From NCBI GenBank assembly GCA_016806715.1, contig CP060531.1, positions 1,287,966-1,351,965 of the forward strand: a stretch of 64,000 nucleotides of DNA. The letters are read 5' to 3'. This document shows, piece after piece, positions 21-51,169 of the stretch. Below the pieces are notes generated by a model that saw only the letters and a program-made list of their open reading frames with translations, made no database searches and had not been told where the DNA came from. This DNA comes from Thermoplasmatales archaeon (lineage in GTDB: Archaea > Thermoplasmatota > Thermoplasmata > Thermoplasmatales > Thermoplasmataceae). How positions within the stretch are numbered: position 1 is the first letter of the stretch; each line of letters starts with the position of its first letter. The position numbers were made by a program, and so were the translations under genes.

Positions 21-1922
21 ATGAAAATCACTTTTAACGCAGGAAAAAAAGATTATGGTCTTTCTGTTCCACACAAAGAACCCAAGGCGATGAATAATAT
101 GGGCTCATACAGAGTTAAATCACCGAAAAAGGGAGAAAGGTTTCAAATAAACATTATGAGGCTTAACAGAACTGTACTCTCATCTTACTCGCCTGGCGAT
201 CAACTCGGTTTTCTTAATCTGGGAGATGAAGTGCATGATATGTTCTGCACCGACGAAAAGAACGAGTTTACGACCATTTCGTTCAGGATACCAACTGAAT
301 ATGGAATATACGGCTTGGGAGAAAACTTCACGACTTTTAACAAAAGGGGAAAGGTTCTTTATACATTCCCTGCCGATAACTATCTCTTGTTTGCGTCCCA
401 AGTTTACAAGGGAATCCCTTTCTTCCTTAGCAATGCGGGACTTGGTATAGTTTTCCCTAGATATGAGCCCATCAAGTTTGATTTTGGGCAAACCATAGAT
501 GGACTCATAATGATCTCAATCCCTTCCACCTCATTTGAGTTCTATATTCTTTATGGAACTCCAATCGAAATTGTGCAGAATTTTGTATCTATGTTTGACA
601 AACCTCAGATGCCTCCGAAATGGAGTTTTGGACTTTGGTGGAGTAGATGGATCGGCATCGGACCACAGTCGGTAAATCAAGTTGCTGAGGTGGTTGATAA
701 GTTCACTAAGGAACAGATACCATTGGATGTCGTTGTGATTGATCCACAGTGGTTAAAGGGTTATATTGCAGGCGTAACTCAGGCATGCTCTTTCGACTGG
801 GATCACAACAAGTTCATGACTGACAACGCGGTGGGAGATCTTCTAGAAAGTAGAGGAAAGAAACTAGCATTGTGGATAAATCCGTATATAGAGTTTTACG
901 GAACTGGATATGAAAAATTGAAGCATTGCTTTCTAAAGGACAAGACTGGAAAAACTGCATTAGTTCCAGTTCAGGATGGCAACCCTAATAAACCAAACAG
1001 AGGAATGGTTGATTTCACCAGGCCAGATTGTGCAGAAGTCTATATTAGTCTAGTTGCCGACCTCATGAAGCGATCCAAGGCGAGGACAGTTATCAGCGAC
1101 TTCGGGGAGACTGTGCCCCCCGATGCAATTGATGAGTACGGCAACCCTGGTTATATGATCAGAAACAAGCTGGGTGATCTCTATCAAATCGCCGCATTCG
1201 ATGGAGTCAAGAGAGGAACTGGTGAAGGCATCATTTGGGGGAGATCTGGATCATTGAGGAGTCATAACCTACCTATTAAATGGGGAGGAGATTCCAACTC
1301 TACATGGGAAGGAATGAAAACTGCGCTAAGAGCAGCACTTACTGCAAGCGTAAGTGGTGCTATCTTCTCCGCATTTGACATTGGGGGGTTCGCAGGTAAA
1401 CCAGATAAGAAATTGTTCCTGAGATGGTCTGCCGCTGCGGCGCTATTCTCCTACTTTAAGCTCCAGGGTACGACGGAAAGAGAACCATGGGCATATGACC
1501 AAGAAACTGTAAATGACTTCAGGGAGTTGTCCGAGCTCAGATACAGACTAATTCACTACATCCTGGACGAAGCAGAGAAGAGCATCAGAGACTACATCCC
1601 ACTGGTTCGCCCCCTTTTAATGGCATTTCCCGAAGACCCGAATGCAGCAAACATAGATGATGAATTTATGCTGGGATCGGATATATTGGTCGCTCCTATC
1701 CTCACGGAAGACGAAATAAGATCCATCTACATACCCGAGGGAGATTGGGTATATTATTACAATGGCGAGAGGACAGGTGGAGGAAAGTGGGTAACAAAAC
1801 AGGAAGGATTCAATAGGGTTCCGCTTTTCGTAAGGAAAGGTGCCAGAATCAAAATCGCAGTTGGAAGAGCAGACAACCTAGAAGAATATCTCAAGCTTCC
1901 AACTCAGATAAGTGAATTCTGA
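21..1922 (+). CDS. GH31 alpha-glycosidase, probably alpha-xylosidase
   Basis: Predicted retaining alpha-glycosidase of family GH31 that would remove alpha-xylosyl or alpha-glucosyl units from oligosaccharides. The 633-residue product has an N-terminal beta-sandwich, then a (beta/alpha)8 barrel from about residue 199 (PKWSFGLWWSRW), then a C-terminal beta region. The nucleophile is D360 in ISDFGE; the FGE form is typical of alpha-xylosidases such as YicI. The acid/base is D424 in WGGDSNSTWE. There is no signal peptide or membrane segment, so it probably works in the cytosol on imported sugars. It lies alone, 20 bases from the window edge, so any upstream partner is out of view. The link to the sugar-acid genes at 6.9-21 kb is inference; glucose-releasing activity is the main alternative. 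Confidence 0.9.
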   Translation: MKITFNAGKKDYGLSVPHKEPKAMNNMGSYRVKSPKKGERFQINIMRLNRTVLSSYSPGDQLGFLNLGDEVHDMFCTDEKNEFTTISFRIPTEYGIYGLGENFTTFNKRGKVLYTFPADNYLLFASQVYKGIPFFLSNAGLGIVFPRYEPIKFDFGQTIDGLIMISIPSTSFEFYILYGTPIEIVQNFVSMFDKPQMPPKWSFGLWWSRWIGIGPQSVNQVAEVVDKFTKEQIPLDVVVIDPQWLKGYIAGVTQACSFDWDHNKFMTDNAVGDLLESRGKKLALWINPYIEFYGTGYEKLKHCFLKDKTGKTALVPVQDGNPNKPNRGMVDFTRPDCAEVYISLVADLMKRSKARTVISDFGETVPPDAIDEYGNPGYMIRNKLGDLYQIAAFDGVKRGTGEGIIWGRSGSLRSHNLPIKWGGDSNSTWEGMKTALRAALTASVSGAIFSAFDIGGFAGKPDKKLFLRWSAAAALFSYFKLQGTTEREPWAYDQETVNDFRELSELRYRLIHYILDEAEKSIRDYIPLVRPLLMAFPEDPNAANIDDEFMLGSDILVAPILTEDEIRSIYIPEGDWVYYYNGERTGGGKWVTKQEGFNRVPLFVRKGARIKIAVGRADNLEEYLKLPTQISEF

Positions 1923-5588: not shown

Positions 5589-6653
5589 ATGAGAAAAAGT
5601 ACGTTAAATTTATTCGGATCTGAGTGGTTCGGAATTTCCATCTCCACACTTGCACTGGCTCAGGTATATATACTGGTTTTCGCAGAATATGCAAATATAG
5701 TCTTCAAGTATATCGCGGAGTCACTTTCAATTCTAGGCATATCAATATTCCTGGTGATATTTGCCATATGGATATACCGGGGATTTGCCATGAAAGACAG
5801 GGTATTTTCTCACTGGAACAACCTGACAAGGCTCAGTTTCACAGCGCTAATACCAATAGTAGGGTTCGTGGGAAATTACCAGCTCATATATTTCTTCGGG
5901 CTCTCCCCGTTAACAGCTGCACTATCTGCTGTTAATTATTATGCCAATTACATTCTGGCCCTTGCCCTGGGTGTTGTTCTCGGCTATCGTCTTTATACCA
6001 AGGAGACAAATCCACGTGAAATGAACTACGCTATTGTAATACCACCTCTGGCCATTGGCACGAGTGTCTTTCTTGCCGCTCCCCTGATGAGTTTTTACAG
6101 CGGGATCGAAAGCCAGACCATGTATTTTCTAGTCCTGATGGGGCTTGGCATATTCTTCTTCCTGTTCATTTTCATAGGGTCACTGGCCCTTGCTGGACAT
6201 GTATCCACAAAGGTGCATGAGACTCTCCCCACAACGATGCTTCCGGTTGGAATATCCAGCTTGATAATCATTAACCTCTTCTCCATAGCAGGGTTTGGCC
6301 AGATAGATCACCTGATTCTTGCCGCATCCTCTGTGGAATTTGTATCTGTGCTGCTATGGGGATTTGAAGTGTGGAACTTCCTTGTTGTAGTCATACTGAT
6401 CTTTACACATCCCGCAAAAGGGACTCTAGGTGTCTGGGCATATGGATTCCCTTTAGGGCTGTTTGCAACTTCCACCATCAAACTGCTGGCATTCACCAAG
6501 TTTCCTGCATTGCTGTGGATTTTTGTGGCAATAGCGGTGATTCTCAATATCCTATGGGTCTATGCCTGGATAAACACAGGGACATTCATGAAGAAAATGT
6601 TCAACAAAGAAAAAAGCGAAAAATACGCGGTCCCAGGGCACGGGTCTGAGTAG
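5589..6653 (+). CDS. TDT/SLAC1-TehA family anion channel or dicarboxylate carrier
   Basis: Polytopic membrane protein of 354 residues with about ten transmembrane helices, the count of the tellurite-resistance/dicarboxylate transporter (TehA/Mae1/SLAC1) family. Supporting signatures are the TTMLPVGISSL turn in the middle and WAYGFPLGLFATSTIKL near the end, matching the conserved W-x-x-x-FPLG segment of the last helices. Such proteins pass monovalent anions or carry C4 acids across the cytoplasmic membrane. The basic tail (KKMFNKEKSEKY) is cytoplasmic. It follows the CMD-like gene by 44 bases. Substrate unknown. Confidence 0.65.
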   Translation: MRKSTLNLFGSEWFGISISTLALAQVYILVFAEYANIVFKYIAESLSILGISIFLVIFAIWIYRGFAMKDRVFSHWNNLTRLSFTALIPIVGFVGNYQLIYFFGLSPLTAALSAVNYYANYILALALGVVLGYRLYTKETNPREMNYAIVIPPLAIGTSVFLAAPLMSFYSGIESQTMYFLVLMGLGIFFFLFIFIGSLALAGHVSTKVHETLPTTMLPVGISSLIIINLFSIAGFGQIDHLILAASSVEFVSVLLWGFEVWNFLVVVILIFTHPAKGTLGVWAYGFPLGLFATSTIKLLAFTKFPALLWIFVAIAVILNILWVYAWINTGTFMKKMFNKEKSEKYAVPGHGSE

Positions 6654-6926: not shown

Positions 6927-7877
6927 TTAGACTATGCGATAATCTGGCTCAGCTCCATTTAAAATGACTTTCTCCACGTTATTGCAACATATCTCATCTA
7001 TCTTTGAAAACGATTTTTCAGTAAATGCTGCTATGTGAGGAGTTACCAGAACCTTATCACTTATTAAAAAGTCGTCAATTTCAGGCGGTTCCTCTGCAAA
7101 AACGTCAAGAGCTACGGAGGCAATTGTCCCATTATTCACGACCCATTCCAAATCTTGCATGTTAATTATCTCGGCACGTGAAGTATTAATGAGATGACTT
7201 CCTTTTTTCATCAGCGAAAACTGTTCACGATTGATCATATTGATGGTTTCCTGGGTCTTTGGCGCATGGATAGAAACTATGTCGGACTCCTTGAAAAGTT
7301 CTGTAAGGTTTACTTTCCTAAATGTCTTTGAATCAACATACGGATCGTAATAAATCACATGACCACCCATCTTATGAACAAGTTCAGCAACTCTTGACCC
7401 TATATGTCCAAGACCTAAGATGCCAACAGTGATCTCACCTATTCCCTTTCCTAGATACCTTTCCCTTTGCCACGAGCCGCTCTTTAATGAGTATGAAGAT
7501 CTGGATATGTTGCGTGTTAGGTTCAGGATGAGACTGAAGGTAAATTCAGCCACAGCGGTTTCCTCTTCTTGTACCGGGGTATTGGTTACCTTAACACCCA
7601 TTCTCTTGCAAGTCAGTAAATCTATCGTATCGATGCCTATACCCCGTCTGGCTATAAGCTTCAGGCTAGACGCATTTTTCAAAACTCTAGAAGTGAATGG
7701 ATCAAGACCTGCAATAACGGCATCGAATTCTCCTATAATGGAACAGAGTTCATTCTCTGTAAACCATCTCTCCATATGATTTGCCCGCACATCAAAATTC
7801 TCTTTCAATCTGTTCAGAAGAGCCGGGGAAAACCAAGGAGAAGTTATAAGCACCCTAGGTCGATTATTGTTTTGCAT
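6927..7877 (-). CDS. D-isomer-specific 2-hydroxyacid dehydrogenase
   Basis: NAD(P)-dependent oxidoreductase interconverting 2-hydroxy and 2-keto acids. The Rossmann motif GLGHIG lies at 155-160, followed by the acidic D at the end of strand 2 (YYDPY), which favours NAD. The catalytic triad is complete: R234 (NTSRAE), E263 (AEEPPE) and H281 (TPHIAAF). The 316 residues match the phosphoglycerate/glyoxylate reductase group. It is the last gene of a four-gene operon; its start overlaps the end of kdgA by 14 bases. In this setting it may act on glycolate/glyoxylate or glycerate/hydroxypyruvate formed after the aldolase step (inference). Confidence 0.88.
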   Translation of the reverse strand: MQNNNRPRVLITSPWFSPALLNRLKENFDVRANHMERWFTENELCSIIGEFDAVIAGLDPFTSRVLKNASSLKLIARRGIGIDTIDLLTCKRMGVKVTNTPVQEEETAVAEFTFSLILNLTRNISRSSYSLKSGSWQRERYLGKGIGEITVGILGLGHIGSRVAELVHKMGGHVIYYDPYVDSKTFRKVNLTELFKESDIVSIHAPKTQETINMINREQFSLMKKGSHLINTSRAEIINMQDLEWVVNNGTIASVALDVFAEEPPEIDDFLISDKVLVTPHIAAFTEKSFSKIDEICCNNVEKVILNGAEPDYRIV

Positions 7878-8724
7878 TTAACAACGCCGTAACTTCCTTT
7901 TCTAGTGCATTTTCCTGTTCTGTTGATAACGCGTACATAGGGGATCTCGGCATTCCTGCATCATACTTTAGTAGTATCCTTATCATACTATAATTGGCTG
8001 CCCACTGCCCATATTTCTGAACCACTGATGTCAAGGTAGAAAGCGTTTTCTGAGATTCCACTCCTTTGTTATCCAGGTCGGAGATAATAGCATTCACCAA
8101 GCTCGGAGCATAGTTACCTGATCCCGCCACCACTCCATCCAGGCCTGCCTTAATGGAAGGATAGATTAATGTGTCCGGCCCGCAGTACACTTTAAATGAA
8201 GGAGAGAATTCCCACTTGAAATTGAGCATGTGAGCCAAATCTGGAAGGGTCTCCTTTATACCTATTATGTTTCCACCCTCCCTATTTACCTTCTTTATCA
8301 ATGGTGGAAAGATGTTATATCCCGTTGTTAGTGGAAAATTGTATGCAAGGGTAGGGTAGATTTCTGAAATCTCTCTGAAATATCTTGAATACCACTCTTC
8401 AGGTACTCTCGGATAATAGTACGGAGGAAGTGCCGCTATTGCTGCTATATTGTATTTCTTTGCAGCCATTGCCAGCAACTTCGACTCTTCGATGTCTAAT
8501 CCGCCTACCTGTAATATGACTTTGTCAGGTAAATCTTTGAATTCTTCTAAAAGACTTATCTTTTCATTAGTCGAGATGGATGGTCCCAAGCCGGTGGAGC
8601 CTGCCAGGAGCAGTTGGTCTACGCCGTTCTTGAACAAGTAATCAGCGTGTTTTCTTAGCTTGGCTTTATCTATAGTATTATCACTTTTAAAAGGTGTAAC
8701 GATAGGTACTATGAAATCATTCAT
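7864..8724 (-). CDS. kdgA: 2-keto-3-deoxy-sugar-acid aldolase (KDG/KDX aldolase)
   Basis: DapA-superfamily class I aldolase of 286 residues, strongly patterned on Sulfolobus/Thermoplasmatales KdgA: GSTGLGPS at 42-49, QVGGL at 72-76, PPYYYPR at 100-106, Y128 in YNFP and the Schiff-base lysine K157 in IIGIKET, then YCGPDTLI. It cleaves 2-keto-3-deoxygluconate, -galactonate or -xylonate to pyruvate plus glyceraldehyde or glycolaldehyde. The GSTGLGPS form separates it from true dihydrodipicolinate synthases, which carry GTTGE. It overlaps both operon neighbours (14 and 8 bases), so the four proteins are probably translationally coupled. Confidence 0.88.
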   Translation of the reverse strand: MNDFIVPIVTPFKSDNTIDKAKLRKHADYLFKNGVDQLLLAGSTGLGPSISTNEKISLLEEFKDLPDKVILQVGGLDIEESKLLAMAAKKYNIAAIAALPPYYYPRVPEEWYSRYFREISEIYPTLAYNFPLTTGYNIFPPLIKKVNREGGNIIGIKETLPDLAHMLNFKWEFSPSFKVYCGPDTLIYPSIKAGLDGVVAGSGNYAPSLVNAIISDLDNKGVESQKTLSTLTSVVQKYGQWAANYSMIRILLKYDAGMPRSPMYALSTEQENALEKEVTALLNAKQ

Positions 8725-9451
8725 TGTAAATCACCGGTGGGGGGGCCTCCTTTTTTCCTATGGTCACAACTAAGTTTGTTTCATCCTCGTTTCTCATTGA
8801 AATATCTACAGTATCTCTCTCTATGTATCCGTCTGAGTTGAATGGAGGATCGTGTCCTGGTATTATAACGTCCGGGTTCAGTTTCCTTATTTTATCTATG
8901 CTCTTCCTAGCAAGATCCAGGTTATAGAATATTATGTCAGGTACTCCGCGCCTGTAAGATCTGAGGTTTGGCATAGCATCACCTGAGATCAGAACGGTTT
9001 TCTTTCCATCAGAGACATTCAGTGAGACATGTCCGGGAGTATGACCCGGTGTGGCAAGTATATGAGTATTTCTCGACACTTGGTTCCCGTCACTGACAGT
9101 CCTGATCTTTCTAGTATTTAGATACTCTTTGAATCCGGCAGTAATCTTGTCAGCAGTTCCGCTTAAGGTTCCGGAGATGAATTCTTCTTTTCCCAATACA
9201 ATTTCTGCGTTTTCAAAAAGGTCTATATTCAGGCAGTGGTCCCAGTTCAGGTGTGTTAGTACTATGGTGTCTATTTCACTCGTCTCAATCCCGAGTTCTT
9301 TCAGGTTTCGAACCAGTACATCCCTGTTGCCAAAGTGTCCTGTATCCACTAGTATTCGCCTGTCATCCTCAACCAGGGTGGATGCTCCAGCCCCCATCGA
9401 TCCAAAAGAACTGATGATCCCAGCTCCCCTGAGGACTCTGGTCACCTTCAT
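8717..9451 (-). CDS. MBL-fold hydrolase, probable sugar lactonase
   Basis: Metallo-beta-lactamase-fold hydrolase, 244 residues. Metal ligands visible: H67, D71 and H72 in THLNWDH (the usual second His of HxHxDH is N69), H137 in PGHTPGH, D158 in SGDAM and H200 in IPGHDP. The layout resembles AHL-lactonase-type enzymes, and its place between a sugar-acid dehydratase and KdgA suggests it opens sugar-acid lactones (gluconolactone, xylonolactone or similar). It overlaps the dehydratase gene by 4 bases (ATGA) and kdgA by 8. A glyoxalase II-like thioesterase role is an alternative. Confidence 0.75.
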
Positions 9452-10590
9452 CTGACATCGCCGTGATATTTGTAATCCTCGCTGAAATATTCTAAGTGCA
9501 TTTTCTGATACGGATATTTGTTCAAGGCATTCTCGTTAACCTCTATTCCCAAGCCAGGCTTATTGCTTGGATAAATGTATCCGTCCTTGAGAGTGAAATA
9601 TTCGTTGATTAGGTCGTGCCTTACTGTTTCAGCGTCAAGCCAGAATTCAAGGACAAGGGCATTTGGCATTGTTATGAGGGCATTTAGTGATGCGGCAGTT
9701 GCAACCGGTCCATTTGGATTGTGCGGAGCCACCGTGACGTAATTGACATTGGCCATCGCCCCAACTTCAATCAGTGGCAGAATTCCACCCATATGGCAAA
9801 CGTCGGGCTGAATGATATCTGCAGATCTTTGTGTGAGCAATTCCCAGAACCTGTTCCGGGAGATAATTCTCTCACCAGTGGCAATGGGTACCTGTGAACC
9901 GTGTCTCACTTCGGCCATGGAAATGATATCCTCCTCTGGAACCGGTTCTTCAAACCAGAAAGGATCATATTGTGCAATTTCCTGCGCAATTTTCAGGGCA
10001 GTTCTCGTGTTGAATCTGCCATGCGCCTCAATCATAAGATCAACGCCTTCTCCAACAGCGTCTCTTATACTTCTAATCCTAGTCTTGGCTTTATCTAGGT
10101 TTTCACTTGAGATATTGGGGCCCGAACCACCAAATGGGTCAAATTTAAGCGCATGGAATCCCATTTCAACTGTCTTAGTCGCAGCCTTGGCGAATTCCTC
10201 CGGGCTAGCATTTCCAGATATAAAGCCATTACCATAAACCTTTACTCTGTCTATAGCCTTTCCGCCAAGCAGCATATAGACTGGCTTCTTCAATGTTTTT
10301 CCCATTGCATCCCATAGGGCTTGCTCTATGGCGCTTTGTGCTGTTGAGAGGATCGGTCCATTTCTCCAGAAGAAATGCCTAACAAAAAAGTCAGTGATTT
10401 CATTAATATTGAGTTCTCGTCCGATCAGGAATGGCTTCAAGTCATTAACTGCTGATTCAACTGTTTTTTCAAAATCACCAAGTGTACCCTCCCCATATCC
10501 TTTTATTCCCTCATCTGTGGTGACTTCCACAATCACAAAATTCCGCCATACAGCTGCAGCAAAGAATGTTCTGAGCTCTTTAATTTTCAT
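9448..10590 (-). CDS. Enolase-superfamily sugar-acid dehydratase (gluconate/galactonate/xylonate type)
   Basis: Mandelate racemase/muconate lactonising-type enzyme, 380 residues, forming a 2-keto-3-deoxy acid by dehydrating an aldonate. The capping domain is residues 1-120 and the barrel follows. Metal ligands are E188 (MIEAHGRF), E214 (WFEEP) and E240 (ATGER); general acid/base candidates are H190 in the AHGRF motif and H290 in APHNPNGP. This set matches galactonate/gluconate dehydratases rather than racemases with a KxK motif. It is first in the operon (10590 to 6927). The 144-base gap to the divergent aldehyde dehydrogenase should carry both promoters. Exact substrate cannot be read from sequence. 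Confidence 0.85.
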
Positions 10591-10734
10591 ATATAGTTAT
10601 TCAAACTCTATATTAATTTCTTTTCTATCTTATACAACATGATATACTAAAACCATAATATTTCAATAGGTAATCCTTTTATCAGAGTATTCAATGACTT
10701 TATTGAACAACTTCTTTTACAGGAGGATTAGAAA

Positions 10735-12174
10735 ATGAAAGGTGCAATAATAGGCAATGAATTTATCTCCGATAAAAAAAATGAGGTATATAATCCCTCC
10801 ACAGGCGAAATACTCGATTTTGTTCCCGCACTGGAAAGGGAAGATGTGAAGCGTGCTATAGACCTTGCCGACAGTGTTTATCCAAAGTATTCTGCTATTC
10901 CAGCGTACATGAGGAAAAAACTTCTAATAAAGACTGCCGAACTCATTCGCAATTCAGTGAACGATCTGGCAACAATTATGTCCTCTGAAATGGGACGGCC
11001 AATTAAGAGTTCGCGTGCGGAAATTGAGAGAACAGCCCAGATTTTTGAATACTGTGCGTGGGAGCTTTCACACGTACTCACAGGTGATTTCGTTCCACTG
11101 GAGGTATACGAGGCACCGGCAGGAAATGAAAACAGGATTGCAATGGTCGCCAGGGAACCCATGGGAGTAATTGCATCAATCACTCCATTCAATTTCCCGG
11201 GGGCAAGTTTCGCTCACAAGGTTGCCACAGCACTTGCTGTTGGAAATACAGTTGTTCACAAACCCACAAAGAATGCTCCGCTTACACAGCTTGAAATAGC
11301 TCAGCTAATGTTGAGGGCTGGCTTTCCGCAGGGGTCTATTAACGTGGTTACCGGAAACTCACAGATGATCGGGGATGAATTTGCAACCAATGAAAAAGTC
11401 AGGCTGATCACTTTCACGGGGTCTTCTAACGTTGGCCTGGAACTTGCATCAAGGGCAATGAAACGTGGCATCAGATCCATAATGGAACTTGGAGGAAGCG
11501 ATGCTCAGATTATACTCGATGATGCTGATCTTCCATCAGCGATCGAAAAAGCGACATTCGGCAGGTACGACTATGCTGGACAATTCTGCAATTCTACTAA
11601 AAGACTCATCGTTTCGGAAAGTGTCGAACAAACCGTAGAAAAGGAAATAGCGGGTAGATTGATCAAGATGAGGGTAGGAACGGCAACTAATGAGTCCAGT
11701 GACATCGGTCCATTGATCTCCAGGGAAGCTGTATCGACAATGCAGAAATTTGTGGAAAATGCAAAAGAAACCGGATCTGAAGTTGTATTCCAGTCAGAGG
11801 TGCCAAAGAAGGGATTCTTCTTCCCACCTACGCTTATTAGGGTTTTAGATGAGAAACCACGTATTGTGAATGAGGAAGTGTTCGGACCTATTCTTCCCAT
11901 TCAAACGGTTAAATCGGACAATGAAGCTGTTGAATTGCTTAACTCATCCAGGTACGGTTTAAACTCATCTATATTTTCTAAAGATTTCTCTCGCGCGTAC
12001 AAAATTGCAAGAAAACTGAAGGTCGGAACTGTTATAATCAATGATACTACCAGGCTGAGATGGGATCAACTCCCATTTGGCGGGCCTAAATTGAGTGGAA
12101 TAGGGCGGGAATCCATAAGCAACACTATGATGGAAATGACAGAACCAAAGGTTATTGCCTATAGACTGGACTAA
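10735..12174 (+). CDS. Aldehyde dehydrogenase (glyceraldehyde/glycolaldehyde/lactaldehyde type)
   Basis: NAD(P)-dependent aldehyde dehydrogenase, 479 residues. Catalytic residues: N153 in the PFNFP oxyanion motif, K176 in HKPTKNAP, E251 in MELGG and the nucleophile C285 in AGQFCNSTKR; EVFGP is present near the C-terminus. SD-like AGGAGG lies about 8 bases before the ATG. It would oxidise the aldehyde released by KdgA, the job of Thermoplasma glyceraldehyde dehydrogenase in the non-phosphorylative pathway. It is divergent from the dehydratase operon and followed after 22 bases by an SDR gene, probably as one transcript. Confidence 0.88.
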   Translation: MKGAIIGNEFISDKKNEVYNPSTGEILDFVPALEREDVKRAIDLADSVYPKYSAIPAYMRKKLLIKTAELIRNSVNDLATIMSSEMGRPIKSSRAEIERTAQIFEYCAWELSHVLTGDFVPLEVYEAPAGNENRIAMVAREPMGVIASITPFNFPGASFAHKVATALAVGNTVVHKPTKNAPLTQLEIAQLMLRAGFPQGSINVVTGNSQMIGDEFATNEKVRLITFTGSSNVGLELASRAMKRGIRSIMELGGSDAQIILDDADLPSAIEKATFGRYDYAGQFCNSTKRLIVSESVEQTVEKEIAGRLIKMRVGTATNESSDIGPLISREAVSTMQKFVENAKETGSEVVFQSEVPKKGFFFPPTLIRVLDEKPRIVNEEVFGPILPIQTVKSDNEAVELLNSSRYGLNSSIFSKDFSRAYKIARKLKVGTVIINDTTRLRWDQLPFGGPKLSGIGRESISNTMMEMTEPKVIAYRLD

Positions 12175-12196
12175 GTAAAGTAGAGGGTTAATAGAT

Positions 12197-12976
12197 ATGA
12201 CAGATTTGAGAGGAAGAAAAGCGATAATAACAGGTGGCACTCACGGAATTGGCGAGGAAATCGCAAGGCATTTTTCTGAGTTGGGAGCGAACGTACTGAT
12301 AATCGGAAGGGATCAGGACCGAGCAAAAGAAATCATTAGAGAATGCAAACAGGGTAGTATTAAGTTCATAAAAGCAGATCTTTCCAAAAGATCTGAGGTT
12401 CTGGATTTGGTAAAGAAGATATCAACGGATGAAACTGTTTATGACGTGCTTATAAATAATGCCTCAAAGAACTCAAGATTCAATGTTGTCAACATACAGC
12501 TCGAAGAATGGGATGCCATGCTTGAACTTAACCTGACAGCCCCTATGTTGCTTTCGAAGTGCATCGCCAGAAAACTAATTGACCAAGGTAAACCAGGGCG
12601 AATCATCAACATAGGGGCAGTGCAGTCTTTTTTCCCTATGGACTCTTCGCTAGCATATTCAACGGTTAAGGGAGGGTTGAGATCCTTCACCAAAAGTCTG
12701 GCAGTTGACCTTGCCTCCCATGGAATCCTGGTTACTCTTGTCATGCCTGGTCCAATATACGCCAAGGGTAAGGAAAGCGAACCTTCCAAGGAACTTGATT
12801 CCAGGTCAGCCGCACTTATTCCGAGAATGGGCAGAAAAATTGAAGTTGCGAAACTCGTGGCTTTCTTAGCATCTGATGAAAATACGTTCATGACGGGCAA
12901 TGAAATAATCATCGATGGGGGAAGAACCATTTCCAGGAAACCGGACCCGGACGAGATCAAAGAGAATGTTCTCTGA
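12197..12976 (+). CDS. Short-chain dehydrogenase/reductase, probable sugar dehydrogenase
   Basis: Classical SDR of 259 residues: coenzyme motif TGGTHGIG (12-19), NNAS (87-90), structural N112, and Y154-x3-K158 (YSTVK). In context it could oxidise an aldose to its lactone. Odd point: the catalytic serine, expected 13 residues before the Tyr, is A141 (the segment reads INIGAVQS rather than INISS). S144 might substitute, or activity may be altered. The tail carries a GG...GNEIIIDGG ending typical of the fold. It follows the ALDH gene by 22 bases on the same strand. Confidence 0.8.
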   Translation: MTDLRGRKAIITGGTHGIGEEIARHFSELGANVLIIGRDQDRAKEIIRECKQGSIKFIKADLSKRSEVLDLVKKISTDETVYDVLINNASKNSRFNVVNIQLEEWDAMLELNLTAPMLLSKCIARKLIDQGKPGRIINIGAVQSFFPMDSSLAYSTVKGGLRSFTKSLAVDLASHGILVTLVMPGPIYAKGKESEPSKELDSRSAALIPRMGRKIEVAKLVAFLASDENTFMTGNEIIIDGGRTISRKPDPDEIKENVL

Positions 12977-13037: not shown

Positions 13038-14000
13038 TCAATTAGACTTACGATAGATATCTTCAACCGCCCTTAAATTCCGTAAAGCATTCTCAGGGGG
13101 ATACGGCACTTCAGTATTATTCTCAACCGCCCTAGAAAATTCAGATATCTCTTTTTCAAATACATCGTATTTTTCCACTGGTATTTTCTCTCCATTCAAG
13201 ATCAGATCTCCATATACTGTTTTTCTGCTAGGAAATTTGAAATCCTCAAGTGACCTTCCGTTAACATCCTCGTACATTGAGCCACTTTCACCAATTACCT
13301 CAAATCCGGGTATAACCGGGGCGTTTTGATAAGCCCAAGTGTAGAAGAAAATCCCTGTCGCTCCGTTTCTGAAATTGAAAAATGCGTGTGTAGTGTCTTC
13401 ACCTTCCAGCGATGAGCCGCCGTGTATAGATCTGCCCTCGACACTGTCATAGTCTCCTCCCAGATCAAGCAAGGTCTCGATGTAGTGTATTCCGCCATCG
13501 ATGAGCGCTCCCCCACCCATCTTTGAAGTGCTGATTCTCCACACTTTCCTTGTGAAATGGTGTTGATCTCTCACAATAATTGAGTGAATTTTACCAATCT
13601 TGCCTGAGGCAATAATATCTTTTACCTTTCTTATAGTTGGATCGAAAAAGTACTGCTCAGCTACCATGAACTTGACGCCGGTCATTTTTGCCTCACGAAT
13701 CATTTCATCACCGTCCTTCACGGAAGTGGCAATAGGCTTCTCAAGCAGTACGTTCTTCCCGCTTTTCATTGCTTTGATTGCCAGTTCTCTGTGCAAATTG
13801 TGTGGTACAACAAGATCAATTATCTGGGCACCGGATCGCAAAGCCTCGTCAAGATTACTGAAGACTTTTCTGATTTCAAAATTTTCATTGCAATAACGGA
13901 TCGTTTCCAAATCGGTCTCAACTATACTTATATCCATGTTCCTTATGGATCTTAGGTGCACTTTCCCAAATCCTCTGCATCCAACTACAACTATTTCCAT
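13038..14000 (-). CDS. Gfo/Idh/MocA family sugar oxidoreductase
   Basis: NAD(P)-dependent dehydrogenase of 320 residues. The Rossmann loop is VVGCRGFGKVH (5-15), the EKP motif with K88 lies at 87-89 (LLEKPIAT), and the C-terminal domain has GGGALIDGGIHYIE with D168 and H172 completing the usual K/D/H set. Members oxidise free or activated sugars, such as glucose, xylose (to xylonolactone) or inositol. It converges on the SDR gene and is followed by an MFS transporter, also on the minus strand. It is a second candidate for the first oxidation step of the pathway. Confidence 0.82.
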   Translation of the reverse strand: MEIVVVGCRGFGKVHLRSIRNMDISIVETDLETIRYCNENFEIRKVFSNLDEALRSGAQIIDLVVPHNLHRELAIKAMKSGKNVLLEKPIATSVKDGDEMIREAKMTGVKFMVAEQYFFDPTIRKVKDIIASGKIGKIHSIIVRDQHHFTRKVWRISTSKMGGGALIDGGIHYIETLLDLGGDYDSVEGRSIHGGSSLEGEDTTHAFFNFRNGATGIFFYTWAYQNAPVIPGFEVIGESGSMYEDVNGRSLEDFKFPSRKTVYGDLILNGEKIPVEKYDVFEKEISEFSRAVENNTEVPYPPENALRNLRAVEDIYRKSN

Positions 14001-14090: not shown

Positions 14091-15494
14091 TTATTTTAGC
14101 TTGACTTCTTTTCTCAACTCCCGGATTGGTCTTCCGTACACTTGATCCATCTGTTCTATTGTCTTTCCTTTCGTTTCCGGTACCATCAACACAACAAATA
14201 TCACAGATATCGCTGACAAGACAAGCTCGAAGGCGAAGAACGAAAATAGGCCATAATCTGCTTTCCAAATTGGGAAGATCCATAGGATAATGCCATTCGC
14301 AATCCAGTCAGCAGCAGCCATAATGCCTGCTCCAGTGACCCTGTAATGTGGATCCAGGGATTCTCCTTGCAAGATCCATCCTACACCTCCAACCCCGACA
14401 TGGAAGAATACTAGGAATAACGTGGAAGCCGCGAAAATTACTATGGCTGCTATTACAAGAGCGCCGGAACTGAAGTACATAATTCCAACCAGCATTATTA
14501 TGAGCGACCCGGCTATTCCGCCATAACCTAGAATTCCAAGTCCTCTTCTTCCCCATTTTTCTATTAGCATAAATGATACCCAGAATTCTAACACTCCTAG
14601 TGTTTCTGAAATAGCTGTATTAAGAATTGCTCTTGATCCAGATAATCCTATGTACTTATATATATAGGGCCCGTAATAGAGGATCACGTTTATACCTGTA
14701 ATCTGTTGGAACGCAAGCCACAAACCCACCACGATGAGTGCATTCCTCACTGATCTGTTTTTTAGAATTTCAAAGTAACTTGCGTCCTTCCCAGGCGGAA
14801 TTATTTTCTCTTTAACCTCAACTCCTATTCTCTTGAGAATCTGCTTAGCCTTATCTACCTTTCCGTTCATAACAAGCCAGCGTGGGCTCTCAGGAAGGAA
14901 AGATCTGAGTATAAGCATCACGGCGGCTGGAAGAGCAGCAAGCCCAAGCATGAGTCTCCAGTCTGCACTCGGTGCCAGAGCGTATCCTACCCAGAAAGAT
15001 ATAACTCCTCCAGAAAATATCATGAGCTGTTGTGAATATGCGTATTTTCCCCTACTCCTAGAAGGCACATACTCTGAAATGTATGACGTCGCAACAGCTG
15101 TGTCAGCACCAATTGCAAACCCTGCTAAAGACCTCCATATTATCAGAAGAGTGAGATTCGTTGACACTGCCGCGAGTATGGCAAAAACAAAGTACATTGC
15201 ACCGTCAGCAATTAGCATTGATTTCCTTCCAAATCTGTCAGTAATAGGTCCAGCAACAACCGCACCAATTGCAGCAATGAACGAAATATAAGAGACTAGT
15301 ATAGCGGTGGAATTCGCGGTTAGCGGAAAGGGAACGTAAAGGAGGACCGACCCTATCACTCCATTATCGTATCCAAATAAAAATCCGCCAAGCGCGGCCA
15401 CAATTGTAATCATGTAAATTACTCTCTTTGCCTTATTTCGATCGATTCTATCTGCGAGTTTGTCATAGCTTATTTCTCCTTCAGAATCAGCCAT
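14091..15494 (-). CDS. MFS sugar porter (SP family)
   Basis: Twelve-helix major facilitator, 467 residues from the ATG chosen here (a TTG at 15515 would add seven). Sugar-porter signatures are all present: DRFGRKS after helix 2, IGADTAVATSYISEYVPSR with the SRGKY following, PESPRWL in the central loop, and PETKGKT after helix 12. It probably imports a hexose, pentose or sugar acid by proton symport across the acidic outside gradient. A TATA-like TTTTAATATT about 25 bases before the ATG fits a leaderless transcript, and the element at 15521-15535 abuts it. Confidence 0.85.
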   Translation of the reverse strand: MADSEGEISYDKLADRIDRNKAKRVIYMITIVAALGGFLFGYDNGVIGSVLLYVPFPLTANSTAILVSYISFIAAIGAVVAGPITDRFGRKSMLIADGAMYFVFAILAAVSTNLTLLIIWRSLAGFAIGADTAVATSYISEYVPSRSRGKYAYSQQLMIFSGGVISFWVGYALAPSADWRLMLGLAALPAAVMLILRSFLPESPRWLVMNGKVDKAKQILKRIGVEVKEKIIPPGKDASYFEILKNRSVRNALIVVGLWLAFQQITGINVILYYGPYIYKYIGLSGSRAILNTAISETLGVLEFWVSFMLIEKWGRRGLGILGYGGIAGSLIIMLVGIMYFSSGALVIAAIVIFAASTLFLVFFHVGVGGVGWILQGESLDPHYRVTGAGIMAAADWIANGIILWIFPIWKADYGLFSFFAFELVLSAISVIFVVLMVPETKGKTIEQMDQVYGRPIRELRKEVKLK

Positions 15495-15520
15495 AAAATA
15501 TATACCGCTTTGCAATATTA

Positions 15521-16292: not shown

Positions 16293-17660
16293 TTATGCAA
16301 ATTCTATATCTCCTTTCTCCGATATCTCCTCCAGGGTCTTCTTTTTTGTTTCTGGAGCCAGCATGATAGACAAAACTAGCCCGCCTATACATGTAAGTAT
16401 TATTATCAACAGCTGGTCCCCTATGACCAAGCTTGGAAAGAAAATCCCCGTAAGTACTCCTCCTATCCTTCCTATTCCCTGTTTCCAGCCCTCCGCGGTT
16501 GCCCTGATCCTTGTTGGAAAAAGCTCCGGAGAGTATACCATGTGCAAACTTCCGGGGCCTATTCCCTGAAACATTGCAAACAATACGAAAGCACCCAACG
16601 ACAACACTTTCAGATTGGCGGGAGCCAACGCGAGTACTACAATCGTTATTAACATTCCAGCCCATCCCGTAAGCGTAGAATTTCTTCTGCCGAATGTGTC
16701 TATTACCAGGATACAGATGATATCTCCTACCACGAACAAAATCCAGTATAAGGAAGATCCTATGAGTCCAGCTTCTCCGAATGACGCAAGAATTGAGGGC
16801 CCATATATGGAAGCATTCACAAAGGCTATAGCAAAAAAGAAATAGAAAAGCCCAATAAATATCGCGCTTTTAGTGAATTTAGTCAAAAGCTCCCTATAAT
16901 AACCTGACACCGGCGGTTTCACATTGGAATCCATTATGAATTTTTGTGTATCAGCCGGCATTGAACCACCTGTAACCCTTTCAATAGCACCGATCGCTTC
17001 TTTCTTTTTTCCGTGCTGTAAAAGCCATCTCGGGGATTCCGGAGTTCGTATTCTTGCAGCTATTGTTATTATCGCCGGGATTGCTGCCGAGATCAACATA
17101 TACCTCCAGGCAACGGTAGCTCCGATTGGTAAAAGCAAATATCCAACCACGACTGCCACAACTCCCGCGATGTTAAAGAATGTTATATTCATCACCAAAA
17201 ATTTCCCTCTCGGATTCACTGGAGTAAACTCGCTAAGATAGGAAGTAGCTATTGGGTAATCTAATCCTATTCCTAAACCGACAAGAAAACGAGCAATTAC
17301 TAATTCATATGCATTTGTAACAATTCCTGAAATTATTGCAAACAATACAAATAGAATCAGATCAATTAGGAATATTAAACGTCTCCCTACTCTATCTACA
17401 AAATATCCGGCGAACAGAGCACCAACCAAATTTCCGACTATAACTGAGACACCAATCAGTCCAACAAGAAAAGCATCATTCTGCAAACCGAATAGTGTCT
17501 TTATTCCAGCTAAACCTATCGATATTATAACTATGTTATATCCATCGACAAAAATTCCACCTCCGGTAAGCATGAGCATTTTATAATTGAACCACTTCGA
17601 CTTTTGCCTGTTCATCTGATTATATGCTCTATCTTTTAGCTCTTCCCAAGATTCAGTCAT
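16293..17660 (-). CDS. MFS transporter, sugar-porter-like
   Basis: Twelve-helix major facilitator of 455 residues with DRVGRRL, GLGIGLDYPIATSYLSEFTP, TPESPRWLL and PETKKKTLEEI, the sugar-porter signature set. It probably takes up a sugar or sugar acid by proton symport. The start ATG lies about 25 bases from a TATA box (minus strand, + coordinates 17679-17690), consistent with a leaderless mRNA. It is divergent from the uxaA pair and shares their 113-base intergenic control region. The motif AAATATTGTAGTCTA at 17701 is shared with the other porter gene. Confidence 0.82.
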   Translation of the reverse strand: MTESWEELKDRAYNQMNRQKSKWFNYKMLMLTGGGIFVDGYNIVIISIGLAGIKTLFGLQNDAFLVGLIGVSVIVGNLVGALFAGYFVDRVGRRLIFLIDLILFVLFAIISGIVTNAYELVIARFLVGLGIGLDYPIATSYLSEFTPVNPRGKFLVMNITFFNIAGVVAVVVGYLLLPIGATVAWRYMLISAAIPAIITIAARIRTPESPRWLLQHGKKKEAIGAIERVTGGSMPADTQKFIMDSNVKPPVSGYYRELLTKFTKSAIFIGLFYFFFAIAFVNASIYGPSILASFGEAGLIGSSLYWILFVVGDIICILVIDTFGRRNSTLTGWAGMLITIVVLALAPANLKVLSLGAFVLFAMFQGIGPGSLHMVYSPELFPTRIRATAEGWKQGIGRIGGVLTGIFFPSLVIGDQLLIIILTCIGGLVLSIMLAPETKKKTLEEISEKGDIEFA

Positions 17661-17773: not shown

Positions 17774-18058
17774 ATGGTAAGCAAATTTTTGGTGCACGCC
17801 AATGAAGATTTTGTTGGCGTGGCAACATACGATATAAAAAAGGGGGAGGAAGTGGAAGGTGTCTTCCTGAGCAATGGCCAGAAGACATCTGTGAAAGCTA
17901 TAGAGGATATTTCTCTTGGGCACAAGATCGCATTGCGCGACATAAAAAACGGCGACAAAATACTGGAATACAGTGAACCAGTCGGGAAAGCGACAAAGGA
18001 CATAAAGAAAGGTGAACATGTGCATATACATAACATAAAGACAATGAGGTGGGAGTAA
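17774..18058 (+). CDS. UxaA-type dehydratase small subunit (SAF domain)
   Basis: A 94-residue SAF-domain protein matching the N-terminal part of altronate/galactarate dehydratases: HANEDFVGVATYDIKKGEEV, then GHKIALRDIKNGDKILEYSE with the GKAT and GEHVHIHN ending. In bacteria this is fused to the catalytic part; archaea often split it. Together with the next gene it should dehydrate a sugar acid to a 2-keto-3-deoxy acid. Sulfolactate sulfo-lyase small subunit (SuyA) is homologous and a possible alternative. Stop and next start overlap as TAATG. Confidence 0.82.
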   Translation: MVSKFLVHANEDFVGVATYDIKKGEEVEGVFLSNGQKTSVKAIEDISLGHKIALRDIKNGDKILEYSEPVGKATKDIKKGEHVHIHNIKTMRWE

Positions 18059-19209
18059 TGTCAACATTTCGTGGATACGAAAGAGAAAATGGTCGAATTG
18101 GTACGAGGAATCATGTGCTAATAATCCCTCTAGACGATCTTTCAAATTCCGCCTCTGTGGCAGTGGAGAATAATGTGTTCGGGACAAGAGCGATACCTCA
18201 CCCTTACGGGAGGCTTCAATTCGGCAGGGATCTCGATCTGACTTTCAAGACCCTTTCTGGAATGGGTCGTAATCCCAACGTGGCAGGCGCAGTTGTAATT
18301 GGAATTGAGGATCAGTGGGCACAGAAGATAGCAGACAGCATTGCCGAAACCGGGAAGAGAGTGGAGGCCCTCAGCATAGAGGGTAATGGTGACTATCGAA
18401 CCATAGAGAAAGCTTCTAGATTGGCGAAGGGAATGGTGGAGGAAGCCAGCGACAAGAGACGAAAAGATTTTGACGTATCGAACCTGGTAGTGAGCACAAA
18501 GTGTGGGGAATCTGACACGACATCCGGCCTTGCATCAAACCCAACTGTGGGAGTAGTGTTTGACAGACTTGTTGACGAAGGTGCTACAGTTATATTTGGC
18601 GAAACATCAGAATTAACAGGGGCCGAGAGCTATGTCGCAAAAAAGTGTGCTACTCCTGAACTTAGAAAAAAATTTCAGAGGATGTTTGACGAGTACCAGA
18701 ACGATATAGTTAAGGAGGGTGCAGATCTTCTGGGCTCGCAGCCGACAAAAGGGAACATAAAGGGTGGTCTGTCAACCATCGAGGAAAAGGCATACGGAAA
18801 TATACAAAAGGCCGGAACAAAAACAATAATCGATGTCCTAGACTATGCAGAAGAGCCCAAGAAAAAGGGGCTGAATTACATGAATACATCTTCAGCAGCT
18901 GCAGAAGCAGTTACGCTATTTTCAGCAGCTGGAGCAGTTGTTCATCTCTTTACAACTGGGCAGGGAAACATAGTGGGCAATCCAATTGAACCGGTTGTAA
19001 AGACTACTGCAAACCCAAACACTGCGAAGACAATGAGCGAACACATAGACCTTGATATCTCAGGGCTGTTAAGATTTGAATTTGACCTGAAGGAAGCTGG
19101 AAACAGGCTCTACGATAGAATGCTGCGAACAGCTTCGGGAACGCTAACTGCAAACGAGATATTGAAGCATCACGAATTCGCCCTTACCAAGCTCTACATC
19201 TCAGCTTAA
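18058..19209 (+). CDS. UxaA-type dehydratase large subunit
   Basis: Catalytic subunit of the altronate/galactarate dehydratase family, 383 residues. Recognisable segments are RIGTRNHVLIIP near the N-terminus, VSTKCGESDTTSGLASNP (the iron-binding Cys region), GETSELTGAE, and NTSSAAAEAVTLFSAAGAVV with TGQGNIVGNPIEPVVK. I choose the ATG at 18058, which overlaps the upstream stop and has AGGTGGGAG five bases before it; a GTG at 18049 is also open. It probably works on a hexonate or uronate-derived acid. SuyB (sulfolactate lyase) is the main alternative. Confidence 0.82.
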   Translation: MSTFRGYERENGRIGTRNHVLIIPLDDLSNSASVAVENNVFGTRAIPHPYGRLQFGRDLDLTFKTLSGMGRNPNVAGAVVIGIEDQWAQKIADSIAETGKRVEALSIEGNGDYRTIEKASRLAKGMVEEASDKRRKDFDVSNLVVSTKCGESDTTSGLASNPTVGVVFDRLVDEGATVIFGETSELTGAESYVAKKCATPELRKKFQRMFDEYQNDIVKEGADLLGSQPTKGNIKGGLSTIEEKAYGNIQKAGTKTIIDVLDYAEEPKKKGLNYMNTSSAAAEAVTLFSAAGAVVHLFTTGQGNIVGNPIEPVVKTTANPNTAKTMSEHIDLDISGLLRFEFDLKEAGNRLYDRMLRTASGTLTANEILKHHEFALTKLYISA

Positions 19210-19260: not shown

Positions 19261-19920
19261 ATGGAGCCAAAAGAGAAACTTAATGAACTCGCATATAAGC
19301 ATATTTTTGATGGTTTATTGCAGGGAAAATTCAGGCCTGGAACATTCCTTAACATAGATGATATCTCCGAAAACCTGAAAATCAGCAAAACCCCGATCAG
19401 GGAAGCACTTCTGGAGCTCGAAGGAGAAGGACTGATCATTAGAAATGGACGGTATTATCACATTTTCAGCCCCTCAAGGAAAGAGATCATGGATCTGTAT
19501 GATGTAAGGAGGATTCTGGAAGGCGAAGCTGCAGCCCTGGCTGCCGGGAATCCATCTCCCGCACTGATCACTGCACTGGATCAGACCATAAGCCGAATAG
19601 AGGAGCTATCCATGGTAGGAGAACCAGACCCGATCCTGTTCGCAGACCTTAGCGGCAAGTTTCACTCCATCATCTGTACAGGTTCTGGAAATGAATTCCT
19701 GTCAAAAATTGTGGGCGATATTAGATTGAAGCTTAAGATAGTGAGAGTAACGTCATTCACAAGTTTCAATAGGAGGAAAGAAGACCTGCTGGAGCATAAA
19801 GCAGTCTTCAACGCGATAAAGAGCAAGAATCCATCACTGGCAAAGGAACTTATGATCGATCACCAGAGCAGGGTTATAGAGTACGTGAAGAGGGAATTAC
19901 TCATGCAGTTCTACGAGTGA
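19261..19920 (+). CDS. GntR-family regulator with FCD domain
   Basis: 219-residue transcription factor: N-terminal winged HTH (GKFRPGTFLNIDDISENL then SKTPIREALLELEGEGLI) and a helical FCD effector domain with the usual acidic/His metal ligands (DLSGKFHSIIC, EHKAVFNAI, DHQSRV). FCD regulators sense sugar acids and commonly control uronate or aldonate use. It lies 51 bases after uxaA and converges on the second enolase-superfamily gene. The palindromes at 17718-17758 and 21078-21088 are plausible targets (inference). Confidence 0.88.
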   Translation: MEPKEKLNELAYKHIFDGLLQGKFRPGTFLNIDDISENLKISKTPIREALLELEGEGLIIRNGRYYHIFSPSRKEIMDLYDVRRILEGEAAALAAGNPSPALITALDQTISRIEELSMVGEPDPILFADLSGKFHSIICTGSGNEFLSKIVGDIRLKLKIVRVTSFTSFNRRKEDLLEHKAVFNAIKSKNPSLAKELMIDHQSRVIEYVKRELLMQFYE

Positions 19921-19923
19921 TTT

Positions 19924-21021
19924 TTAGTGAAACCTTAGCATCCGTGTACTGTCGGATATTGGTATGTTCTCGGTTGGCTCTATACCTAGGCCCTTACCTC
20001 CAGGCGAAAGCGTGTTCTTGTCAATAGTTCCGGTGAAAGAGAAAAACTTCGGTATCTCATTTGGTGGAGTTTCTACCAAAGTCTTTCCATCATATGAGCA
20101 GCCAAGGTTTGCACTGGCCAGGATTCCTATCCATCCATTGTGCGGTCTGTTGTGAAAGGCTAGCGTCGCGTTATTTGCCCTCATTAGGCCCATCAACTCT
20201 ATGAATGGGGTTACCCCGCCGATCTTTGTAACATCGGGCTGATAATAGCTCAAGCAATCATTTTCCAGTAATCTCTTGAAATCAAATATGCTGAAGAAGT
20301 TCTCTCCAGCAGCAACCGGACCAATCGTATTTAGTTTCCTGAGCGAATCAAAATCATCAGGAGGCCACATTGGCTCCTCAACCCACTTAAGTTCGTACCT
20401 CGCGGACTTGATCATGAATTCTCTTGCTGTCTCAAAGTCCATTGAGCAGTTCATGTCAACCATGAGGTCGAAATCATATCCCAGTTCATCCCTTATGCTT
20501 TTCACTGTTTCAAGTGTGTCAAACCACGTCTGGTGCAGTTTTATCGACTTATAACCGTCTGAGATCAAATTTCCCACTGCTTTTGTTGCAACGGAGGGTT
20601 CCGAATACCGTGAGAGAGATGCATATCGTTCAACAGATGACCTTCTTTTTCCCAGTATTCTTGCAAGTGAGGAACCGGACTCTTTTGTCAGCATATCCCA
20701 CAGGGCAATATCAACACCTGAAATAGAACCTGTAGTAATGCCGTAACCGCCTGAAAAGGTCATTTTCCTCATGTTATTCCACACTTCCCTGATATTATTC
20801 TCATCCGCGGAGGTTAGATAATCTGTAAGTATGTTCAACAGTGCAATATATGGTTCCCTGGAGTTTCCGGCTGCTGTCAGTATCTCTCCCCACCCTACCG
20901 TCCCATTACCATTCCTTATCTTCACAAATAGCTGATTACCCCATTCCTGAATCCACATCTGTTCCGGGTTGGTCTTATTCAGTGGGATGGATGCTTTTAT
21001 CGCTTCTACACTTTTTAACAT
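19924..21021 (-). CDS. Second enolase-superfamily sugar-acid dehydratase
   Basis: Mandelate racemase/MLE-type enzyme of 365 residues. Metal ligands D189 (MVDMNCS), E215 (WVEEPMW) and E240 (VAAGENF); K161 and H163 in SIKLHQ and H290/H294 in AFHNRPH are catalytic candidates. The set differs from the 9448-10590 enzyme (D189 instead of Glu, lysine on strand 2), so a different substrate, such as L-fuconate, rhamnonate or another acid, is likely. It converges on the GntR regulator gene with a 3-base gap. A short palindrome TATACTGTATA (21078-21088) lies upstream. Confidence 0.8.
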   Translation of the reverse strand: MLKSVEAIKASIPLNKTNPEQMWIQEWGNQLFVKIRNGNGTVGWGEILTAAGNSREPYIALLNILTDYLTSADENNIREVWNNMRKMTFSGGYGITTGSISGVDIALWDMLTKESGSSLARILGKRRSSVERYASLSRYSEPSVATKAVGNLISDGYKSIKLHQTWFDTLETVKSIRDELGYDFDLMVDMNCSMDFETAREFMIKSARYELKWVEEPMWPPDDFDSLRKLNTIGPVAAGENFFSIFDFKRLLENDCLSYYQPDVTKIGGVTPFIELMGLMRANNATLAFHNRPHNGWIGILASANLGCSYDGKTLVETPPNEIPKFFSFTGTIDKNTLSPGGKGLGIEPTENIPISDSTRMLRFH

Positions 21022-46719: not shown

Positions 46720-46868
46720 GTTGCAGTTCATCCCCTCTTAACACAGTTAGAATCTGTTTCTCTACTACTTTGCGGAGAAGGGCTATATTTGCGCATTTTG
46801 TTGTTATACAGATGATAATAAATCAACATTAGGAACGGATAATAAAGTGAACACTCCGTTTAAGCAAA

Positions 46869-49949: not shown

Positions 49950-49972
49950 CAGGTCCCTGAATATTTTTCCCG

Positions 49973-51163: not shown

Positions 51164-51169
51164 GAAGGT

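Follow-up and report, generated by a model that had tools for sequence, protein, structure and literature searches.

A putative Entner-Doudoroff-type sulfosugar pathway linked to sulfolactate sulfo-lyase genes in a Thermoplasmatales archaeon

In a 64,000-nucleotide stretch of the genome of a Thermoplasmatales archaeon (GenBank assembly GCA_016806715.1, contig CP060531.1, positions 1,287,966 to 1,351,965; hereafter the window), two divergent operons of six genes lie 5 kb from a gene pair for the two subunits of (R)-sulfolactate sulfo-lyase, SuyA and SuyB. The two operons probably encode an Entner-Doudoroff (ED)-type pathway that starts from a 6-deoxy-6-sulfo-hexose, with sulfofucose the most likely substrate, and ends in sulfite. 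We infer every substrate and reaction of this pathway from the gene families and their context. A short-chain dehydrogenase/reductase (SDR) would oxidize the sulfosugar to its lactone, which a metallo-beta-lactamase-fold hydrolase (MBL) would open, and a dehydratase (DHT) would convert the sulfo-aldonate to a 2-keto-3-deoxy acid that an aldolase (ALD) would split into pyruvate and (S)-3-sulfolactaldehyde (SLA). An aldehyde dehydrogenase (ALDH) would then form (S)-sulfolactate, a hydroxyacid dehydrogenase (HADH) and/or a second enolase-superfamily protein (ENO2) would invert it to (R)-sulfolactate, and SuyAB would yield a second pyruvate and sulfite, the latter being exported.

A sulfonated substrate is suggested by the clade membership of SuyB, the genomic linkage of SuyB and the dehydratase, the Pfam domain pair of the dehydratase, the C-terminal tail of the SDR, an arginine in the aldolase combined with the lack of a kinase in the operon, the resemblance of HADH to phosphoglycerate dehydrogenase (PGDH), and the presence of sulfofucose in the N-glycans of Thermoplasma acidophilum. 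The original prediction for these six genes, a complete non-phosphorylative set for a free sugar, perhaps xylose by a Dahms-type route, is partly supported. Its gene list, divergent layout and overlaps were borne out by the open reading frame (ORF) coordinates and the Pfam assignments, and every gene family agrees with the proposed chain of oxidation, lactone opening, dehydration, aldol cleavage and aldehyde oxidation. Xylose as the substrate is not supported, since the module is tied genomically to SuyAB, which is unneeded in a xylose pathway and had been overlooked.

Gene arrangement and linkage to SuyAB

All six ORFs were confirmed (Table 1). Pfam searches assigned their products, with high significance throughout, to 2-Hacid_dh, DHDPS, Lactamase_B, MR_MLE (enolase superfamily), Aldedh and adh_short. 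The minus-strand genes overlap by 14, 8 and 4 nt, and 144 bp separate the two divergent starts. The same arrangement, DHT-MBL-ALD(-HADH) divergent from ALDH-SDR, was observed in G042, G043, G081 and G100, with approximately 50-87% protein identity (G-numbers denote the Thermoplasmatota genomes compared; G000 is the genome holding the window, a single contig of 1.96 Mb). Parts of the block occur in G046 and G080, and a rearranged form in G078 and G116; thus, at least six other Thermoplasmatota genomes carry all or some of the block, and its recurrence in the first two groups shows that the arrangement is not due to chance. A scan of named genomes gave six Thermoplasmatota/Thermoplasma contigs of metagenome-assembled genomes. 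In G042 and G043, the HADH slot is occupied by a UxuA-family (mannonate dehydratase) protein (L094:8320-9309 and L095:9451-10431), and a UxuA-family gene also lies near the cluster of a third relative (L098:1416-2411). Opp-type ABC genes adjoin the block in G078, G116 and G100 and lie directly upstream of the window, while GH31 genes adjoin it in G078, G116 and the window. Elsewhere, the genome encodes a gluconate/galactonate dehydratase paralog (C1:968680, 36% identical to DHT) and two further DHDPS-family proteins (28-29% identical to ALD). The module is therefore an extra pathway that need be neither a housekeeping route nor the only ED route of the cell.

Table 1. Features of the two operons, the SuyAB locus and the surrounding genes; positions are those of the window.
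Feature	Position	Strand	Basis
HADH, D-2-hydroxyacid dehydrogenase	6927..7877	-	PF02826/PF00389; best PDB match 1wwk
ALD, 2-keto-3-deoxygluconate (KDG)-aldolase-type class I lyase, DHDPS family	7864..8724	-	PF00701; NCBIfam Arch_KDGaldase
MBL, metallo-beta-lactamase-fold hydrolase	8717..9451	-	PF00753
DHT, enolase-superfamily (MR subgroup) sugar-acid dehydratase, DgoD-type	9448..10590	-	PF13378+PF02746
Intergenic promoter region of the divergent operons	10591..10734	none	Sequence; divergent layout kept in G042, G043, G046, G081, G100
ALDH, aldehyde dehydrogenase	10735..12174	+	PF00171; best PDB match 8hap
SDR	12197..12976	+	PF13561, as SfcH
SuyA, small SAF-domain subunit of (R)-sulfolactate sulfo-lyase	17774..18058	+	PF08666; 94 aa; 37-42% to SuyA of bacterial sulfonate clusters
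SuyB, large subunit of (R)-sulfolactate sulfo-lyase	18049..19209	+	386 aa, UxaA/GarD-type; 55-59% to bacterial SuyB
GntR/FCD-family regulator, SuyR-like	19261..19920	+	PF07729+PF00392
ENO2, second enolase-superfamily protein	19924..21021	-	PF13378; MR-type fold
Major facilitator superfamily (MFS) protein linked to SuyAB, candidate transporter of sulfolactate	16293..17660	-	PF00083
GH31 alpha-glycosidase, candidate for releasing sugar from glycan	21..1922	+	YicI alpha-xylosidase model 361 bits, cut-off 606
SLAC1/TDT-family membrane protein, possible sulfite or organic-acid exporter (speculative)	5589..6653	+	PF03595; TIGR00816 tdt 67 bits
Gfo/Idh/MocA oxidoreductase, accessory	13038..14000	-	PF01408/PF22725
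Sugar-porter-family MFS, candidate sulfosugar importer	14091..15515	-	TIGR00879 264 bits, above cut-off

By their sequences, the two ORFs beyond the module are SuyA and SuyB, and release of sulfite from (R)-sulfolactate is predicted for the pair. The suyA frame overlaps the start of suyB and encodes a separate small SAF subunit, giving the two-subunit architecture, and SuyA directly precedes SuyB in G042, G043, G081, G098, G100 and G084. When SuyB was searched against plasmids, a discrete set of proteins matched at 55-59% identity, all other matches being at or below approximately 42%. Five bacterial loci of the close set were inspected, and all lie in sulfonate gene clusters; the neighbours include hpsN/hpsO in Cupriavidus, an exporter, a sulfite oxidase and HisD/SDR/ADH genes in Paracoccus, TauE in Methylobacterium and a sulfate exporter in SC52. 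In a maximum-likelihood tree, eight archaeal and five bacterial SuyB sequences formed one clade (support 100/99) that excluded UxaA/GarD and the other UxaA-like paralogs. Blocks such as KCGESDTTSG, FGETSELTGAE and GSQPTKGNI are common to this clade, and none of nine UxaA-like paralogs from the order has them. An altronate/galactarate dehydratase was rejected on the basis of the tree and the neighbouring genes. Four cysteines are conserved across the characterized UxaA/GarD members except sulfolactate sulfo-lyase (PMC6336799). SuyB lacks these conserved cysteines, and a single one of the cysteine columns of E. coli UxaA/GarD is common to all SuyB; this absence alone is not decisive, because other UxaA-like (ux_) paralogs also lack most of them.

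Of 117 genomes from the order, 11 have SuyB, nine the dehydratase and six both (orthologs at ≥73% and ≥63% identity, respectively; Fisher P=1.1e-5, uncorrected for relatedness), and the co-occurrence was also observed within the family (P=1.4e-4), to which SuyB is nearly confined among 390 genomes sampled from the phylum. The two genes lie within approximately 10 kb of each other in five genomes of three genera (G000, G042, G043, G081 and G078).

Candidate enzymes and transporters

The SDR is proposed to be a sulfosugar 1-dehydrogenase resembling SfcH of the bacterial sulfofucose pathway. It was compared with two cluster SDRs, from Sinorhizobium mexicanum and Arthrobacter, rather than with SfcH itself, and is 34-36% identical to these. 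The archaeal SDRs end in a DGGRxISRKxDP tail (SRL in G116), which the two bacterial SDRs share with small changes and which is absent from the other SDRs compared, including those of Aulosira, Halobaculum and two Agrobacterium plasmids. The tail at the C-terminus of related SDRs extends into the sulfonate site of the neighbouring subunit, and a role of the SRK tail in sulfonate binding is thus plausible by analogy; chain 9gwu, a sulfoquinovose dehydrogenase, stops shortly past the point corresponding to the tail. Two further SDRs were noted. That of G084 bears the SRK tail and has Ala at the position of the catalytic Ser, and its gene is overlapped by that of ENO2 (L106:8833-9939). In G053, an SRK-tailed SDR lies on an 8.7-kb contig (G053:C90; L128) beside an MFS sugar porter and what looks like an aldose-1-epimerase-like protein, and neither SuyAB nor the dehydratase is present there.

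For MBL, a sulfo-aldonolactonase is proposed. Its motif HxNxDH ... H ... D ... H is invariant in seven orthologs, and a structure model (pLDDT 80) places it nearest to TM0894, organophosphorus hydrolases/lactonases, 4-pyridoxolactonase and acylhomoserine lactone (AHL) lactonases among solved folds. DHT retains the motifs EAH, EEP, GER and APH, and scored 317 bits against the NCBIfam model glucon_galact_dh (cut-off 750) and 289 bits against PRK14017 galactonate dehydratase (cut-off 311), reaching neither cut-off. It carries the Pfam pair of SfcF (PF13378+PF02746) and not PF00920, the family of the dehydratase in sulfoquinovose sulfo-ED pathways (PMC12421959), and it is proposed to be a sulfogalactonate dehydratase of the SfcF type. 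DHT is 36% identical to the SfcF candidate of S. mexicanum; in the alignment of the two, no shared sulfonate-binding residues were found besides W212. The dehydratase matches in Microvirga, Halomontanus and Thermomicrobium had no sulfonate gene context.

ALD scored 269 bits against the archaeal KDG/KDPG aldolase model (Arch_KDGaldase, NF040954), short of the curated cut-off of 390, and the Lys of its GIKET motif corresponds to that of GVKDT in the Sulfolobus (Sso) KDG aldolase. All six module aldolases have Arg at the site of Sso R106, which we take to be phosphate-binding and a putative C6-anion site, and none of the 22 other homologs compared from the order has it. The six may form a single clade, so that retention of the Arg may represent one event. 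No kinase is encoded in the operon, and ALD is proposed to be a 2-keto-3-deoxy-6-sulfo-hexonate aldolase releasing pyruvate and SLA. ALDH, proposed to be the SLA dehydrogenase, has an FNF oxyanion tripeptide and a His at the site of Arg171/His164 of known SLA dehydrogenases (SLADH). HADH had been predicted to handle glycolate/glyoxylate, which its scores do not support: the best NCBIfam model was PGDH (240 bits; cut-off of 454 not reached), as compared with 184 bits for glyoxylate reductase. The (S)-sulfolactate dehydrogenase SlcC belongs in or beside the PGDH/SERA clade (PMC6303947), PGDH-type genes occur with SuyAB in GH188 clusters, and HADH is 32% identical to the 2-hydroxyacid dehydrogenase of a Rhodococcus SuyAB cluster. 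HADH is proposed to be an SlcC-like (S)-sulfolactate dehydrogenase or another sulfolactate-handling enzyme.

ENO2, encoded beside SuyAB, is a candidate sulfolactate racemase or second sulfo-sugar-acid dehydratase. Its gene adjoins SuyAB-GntR in G097, G098, G100, G044 and G081 and SuyA in G084, and K161, H163, D189, E215, E240, D263, H290 and E317 are invariant; the overlap with the SDR gene in G084 means that the second-dehydratase role fits too. The GntR/FCD regulator adjoins SuyAB in most archaeal loci as well as in Paracoccus and Rhodococcus. The MFS transporter next to SuyAB holds the same position in G097 (86% identical) and is 67% identical in G098. In G097 (L102, C1:1437.7-1442.7 kb), the order MFS-SuyA-SuyB-GntR-ENO2 is that of the window, and no ED module is present (the SuyA frame was not extracted separately there); G097 is thus a predicted sulfolactate user.

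In G043, G046, G081 and G100, sugar-porter MFS genes are found close to either the module or SuyAB, and the Gfo/Idh/MocA gene is kept beside the module in G046 (73%). A GH188 sulfoquinovosidase is not supported for the Gfo/Idh/MocA protein, its match to 8qc2 being remote (42 bits). The GH31 protein was originally taken for an alpha-xylosidase fitting a xylose pathway; the resemblance of the GH31 enzymes to YicI and alpha-xylosidases holds (361-401 bits, below the cut-off of 606), but does not settle which sugar or pathway is involved. A classical sulfoquinovosidase was rejected for GH31, as R301/W304, the sulfonate-binding residues of YihQ, are absent in the alignment. The SLAC1/TDT gene is divergent from the operon end, and its adjacency to the module is not conserved in other genomes. 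Three TauE/SafE proteins are encoded elsewhere in the genome, and no sulfite oxidase was found in it, though the ORF list shows by eye a run of apparent molybdenum-cofactor biosynthesis genes at 45810-53045. Farther along the window are two large adjacent ORFs resembling a type III restriction-modification pair (Mod, Res; 53860-58381) and an ORF like an ISL3-type transposase (61006-62208).

Weighing the sulfosugar pathway against alternatives

Several observations weigh against the proposed pathway. In all six archaeal module SDRs checked, Ala replaces the catalytic Ser (NIGAVQS..., Tyr-13), Tyr and Lys being kept, and the SRK-tailed SDR of G053 stands in a different context. ALD has lost other C6-end residues of the Sso enzyme (Y132F; Q in place of both R237 and S241), and the Arg is missing from the aldolase of G078, which is clustered with SuyB. 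ALDH has His/Asp at two proposed sulfonate positions, where known SLA dehydrogenases have Arg/Arg or His/Asn. A ComC partner (LDH2/MDH2, PF02615) for SlcC/ComC inversion was not found in the genome, control genomes being positive, and GH31 resembles alpha-xylosidases and lacks the sulfonate residues of sulfoquinovosidases. Finally, the two modules also occur apart, the ED part without detectable SuyB in G046 and SuyAB without the ED module in G044, G073, G097 and G098.

The same pathway may act on sulfoquinovose (6-sulfoglucose), supplied by the sulfolipid of algae or the N-glycans of Sulfolobales, an alternative we consider possible with the balance against it. Sulfoquinovose is far more abundant than sulfofucose, occurs in the N-glycans of Sulfolobus acidocaldarius and, like sulfofucose, yields (S)-sulfolactaldehyde, and DHT scored slightly higher with the gluconate/galactonate model than with the galactonate model. 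However, the enolase-type dehydratase is described only in sulfofucolysis, and Arg152/Arg154 of the sulfoquinovose dehydrogenase PpSQDH are conserved neither in the archaeal SDR nor in that of S. mexicanum, with which it shares the tail. The GH31 residues likewise speak against sulfoquinovose, and it is sulfofucose that is documented in Thermoplasma.

It is unlikely that the window holds two linked but separate modules, with the ED operons making and excreting sulfolactate or using another anionic sugar acid, and MFS-SuyAB-GntR-ENO2 scavenging external sulfolactate. The occurrence of the latter set, with the same MFS, alone in G097 and G098 and the ED part of G046 would fit such a division, but the same 15-kb stretch is found in the window, G042, G043, G081 and G078, and in this genome the product of one module would feed the other.

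An ordinary non-phosphorylative ED or Dahms pathway for galactose, xylose or arabinose, with SuyAB an unrelated neighbour, is very unlikely: all six families are generic sugar families, GH31 is alpha-xylosidase-like, a sugar porter is adjacent and the two modules can occur apart, but the co-occurrence and clustering with SuyAB, the PGDH-like rather than glyoxylate reductase-like HADH, the separate gluconate dehydratase paralog and the module-specific ALD Arg and SDR tail all argue against a neutral sugar.

Relation to known sulfosugar pathways

The sulfofucose pathway of Paracoccus wurundjeri, described in 2025, comprises SfcH-SfcD-SfcF-SfcE, SlcC/ComC and SuyAB, its SLA dehydrogenase not having been found (PMC12421959). 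The sulfosugar pathway proposed here would share its reaction order, SDR dehydrogenase (PF13561), enolase-superfamily dehydratase (PF13378/PF02746) and SuyAB end step. In contrast to P. wurundjeri, the window is archaeal, has an MBL-fold (PF00753) rather than an SMP-30 (PF08450) lactonase, a DHDPS-family (PF00701) rather than an HpcH (PF03328) aldolase, a candidate SLA dehydrogenase and MFS and Opp-type transporters, and lacks ComC. With these families in the lactonase and aldolase slots, it would be a functional analogue of the sulfofucolytic ED route and not an orthologous pathway. S. mexicanum ITTG, named as sulfofucolytic (PMC12421959), has SuyAB, the dehydratase related to DHT and the SDR within 20 kb.

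An uncharacterized plasmid cluster of Arthrobacter sp. YA7-1 (L111; SDR-dgoD-DHDPS aldolase-SMP-30-PfkB-aldolase-SSADH-TauE) resembles the window in having a dgoD-type dehydratase, a DHDPS-family aldolase, an ALDH and an SDR that ends in the shared tail, and differs in being bacterial, in its SMP-30 lactonase and sulfo-Embden-Meyerhof-Parnas (EMP)-like genes, with identities of 27-36%. The DHDPS aldolase family is thus also used in a bacterial sulfosugar-type cluster. The Arthrobacter cluster seems to join a sulfofucose-type ED set with sulfo-EMP-like PfkB and aldolase, SSADH and TauE. The sulfoquinovose sulfo-ED pathway of Pseudomonas putida SQ1 shares the pathway logic, the SDR first step and the ALDH last step, but has a PF00920 dehydratase and other aldolase and lactonase families, and the sulfolactate is excreted. 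The non-phosphorylative ED pathways of Sulfolobus/Picrophilus and the Dahms pentose pathway employ the same dehydratase and KDG-aldolase superfamilies, but with unsulfonated substrates and with neither SuyAB nor a PGDH-clade enzyme.

Sulfofucose breakdown has been described in bacteria only (PMC12421959), and according to a 2026 review archaea have no characterized sulfoquinovose degradation pathway (PMC12890257); in the literature searched, we found no characterized archaeal sulfosugar catabolism. Our best reading of the sequences is that archaea have assembled the bacterial logic of sulfofucolysis plus SuyAB from enzyme families that differ in part. A fuller scenario, which we put forward tentatively and regard as doubtful, is a complete archaeal pathway recycling the sulfofucose of the Thermoplasmatales' own N-glycans, with ABC import of glycan pieces, GH31 as the first sulfofucosidase, lactonase and aldolase steps run by non-orthologous enzymes, the SLA dehydrogenase that the bacterial pathway lacks, and ENO2 as a one-step racemase of the mandelate racemase family replacing SlcC/ComC. 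The window offers candidates for two enzymes that the field still lacks, the sulfofucosidase and the SLA dehydrogenase of sulfofucolysis. If the proposed pathway is correct, it would close a loop in thermoacidophilic sulfur cycling, in which Thermoplasma makes sulfofucose and its relatives consume it, releasing sulfite.

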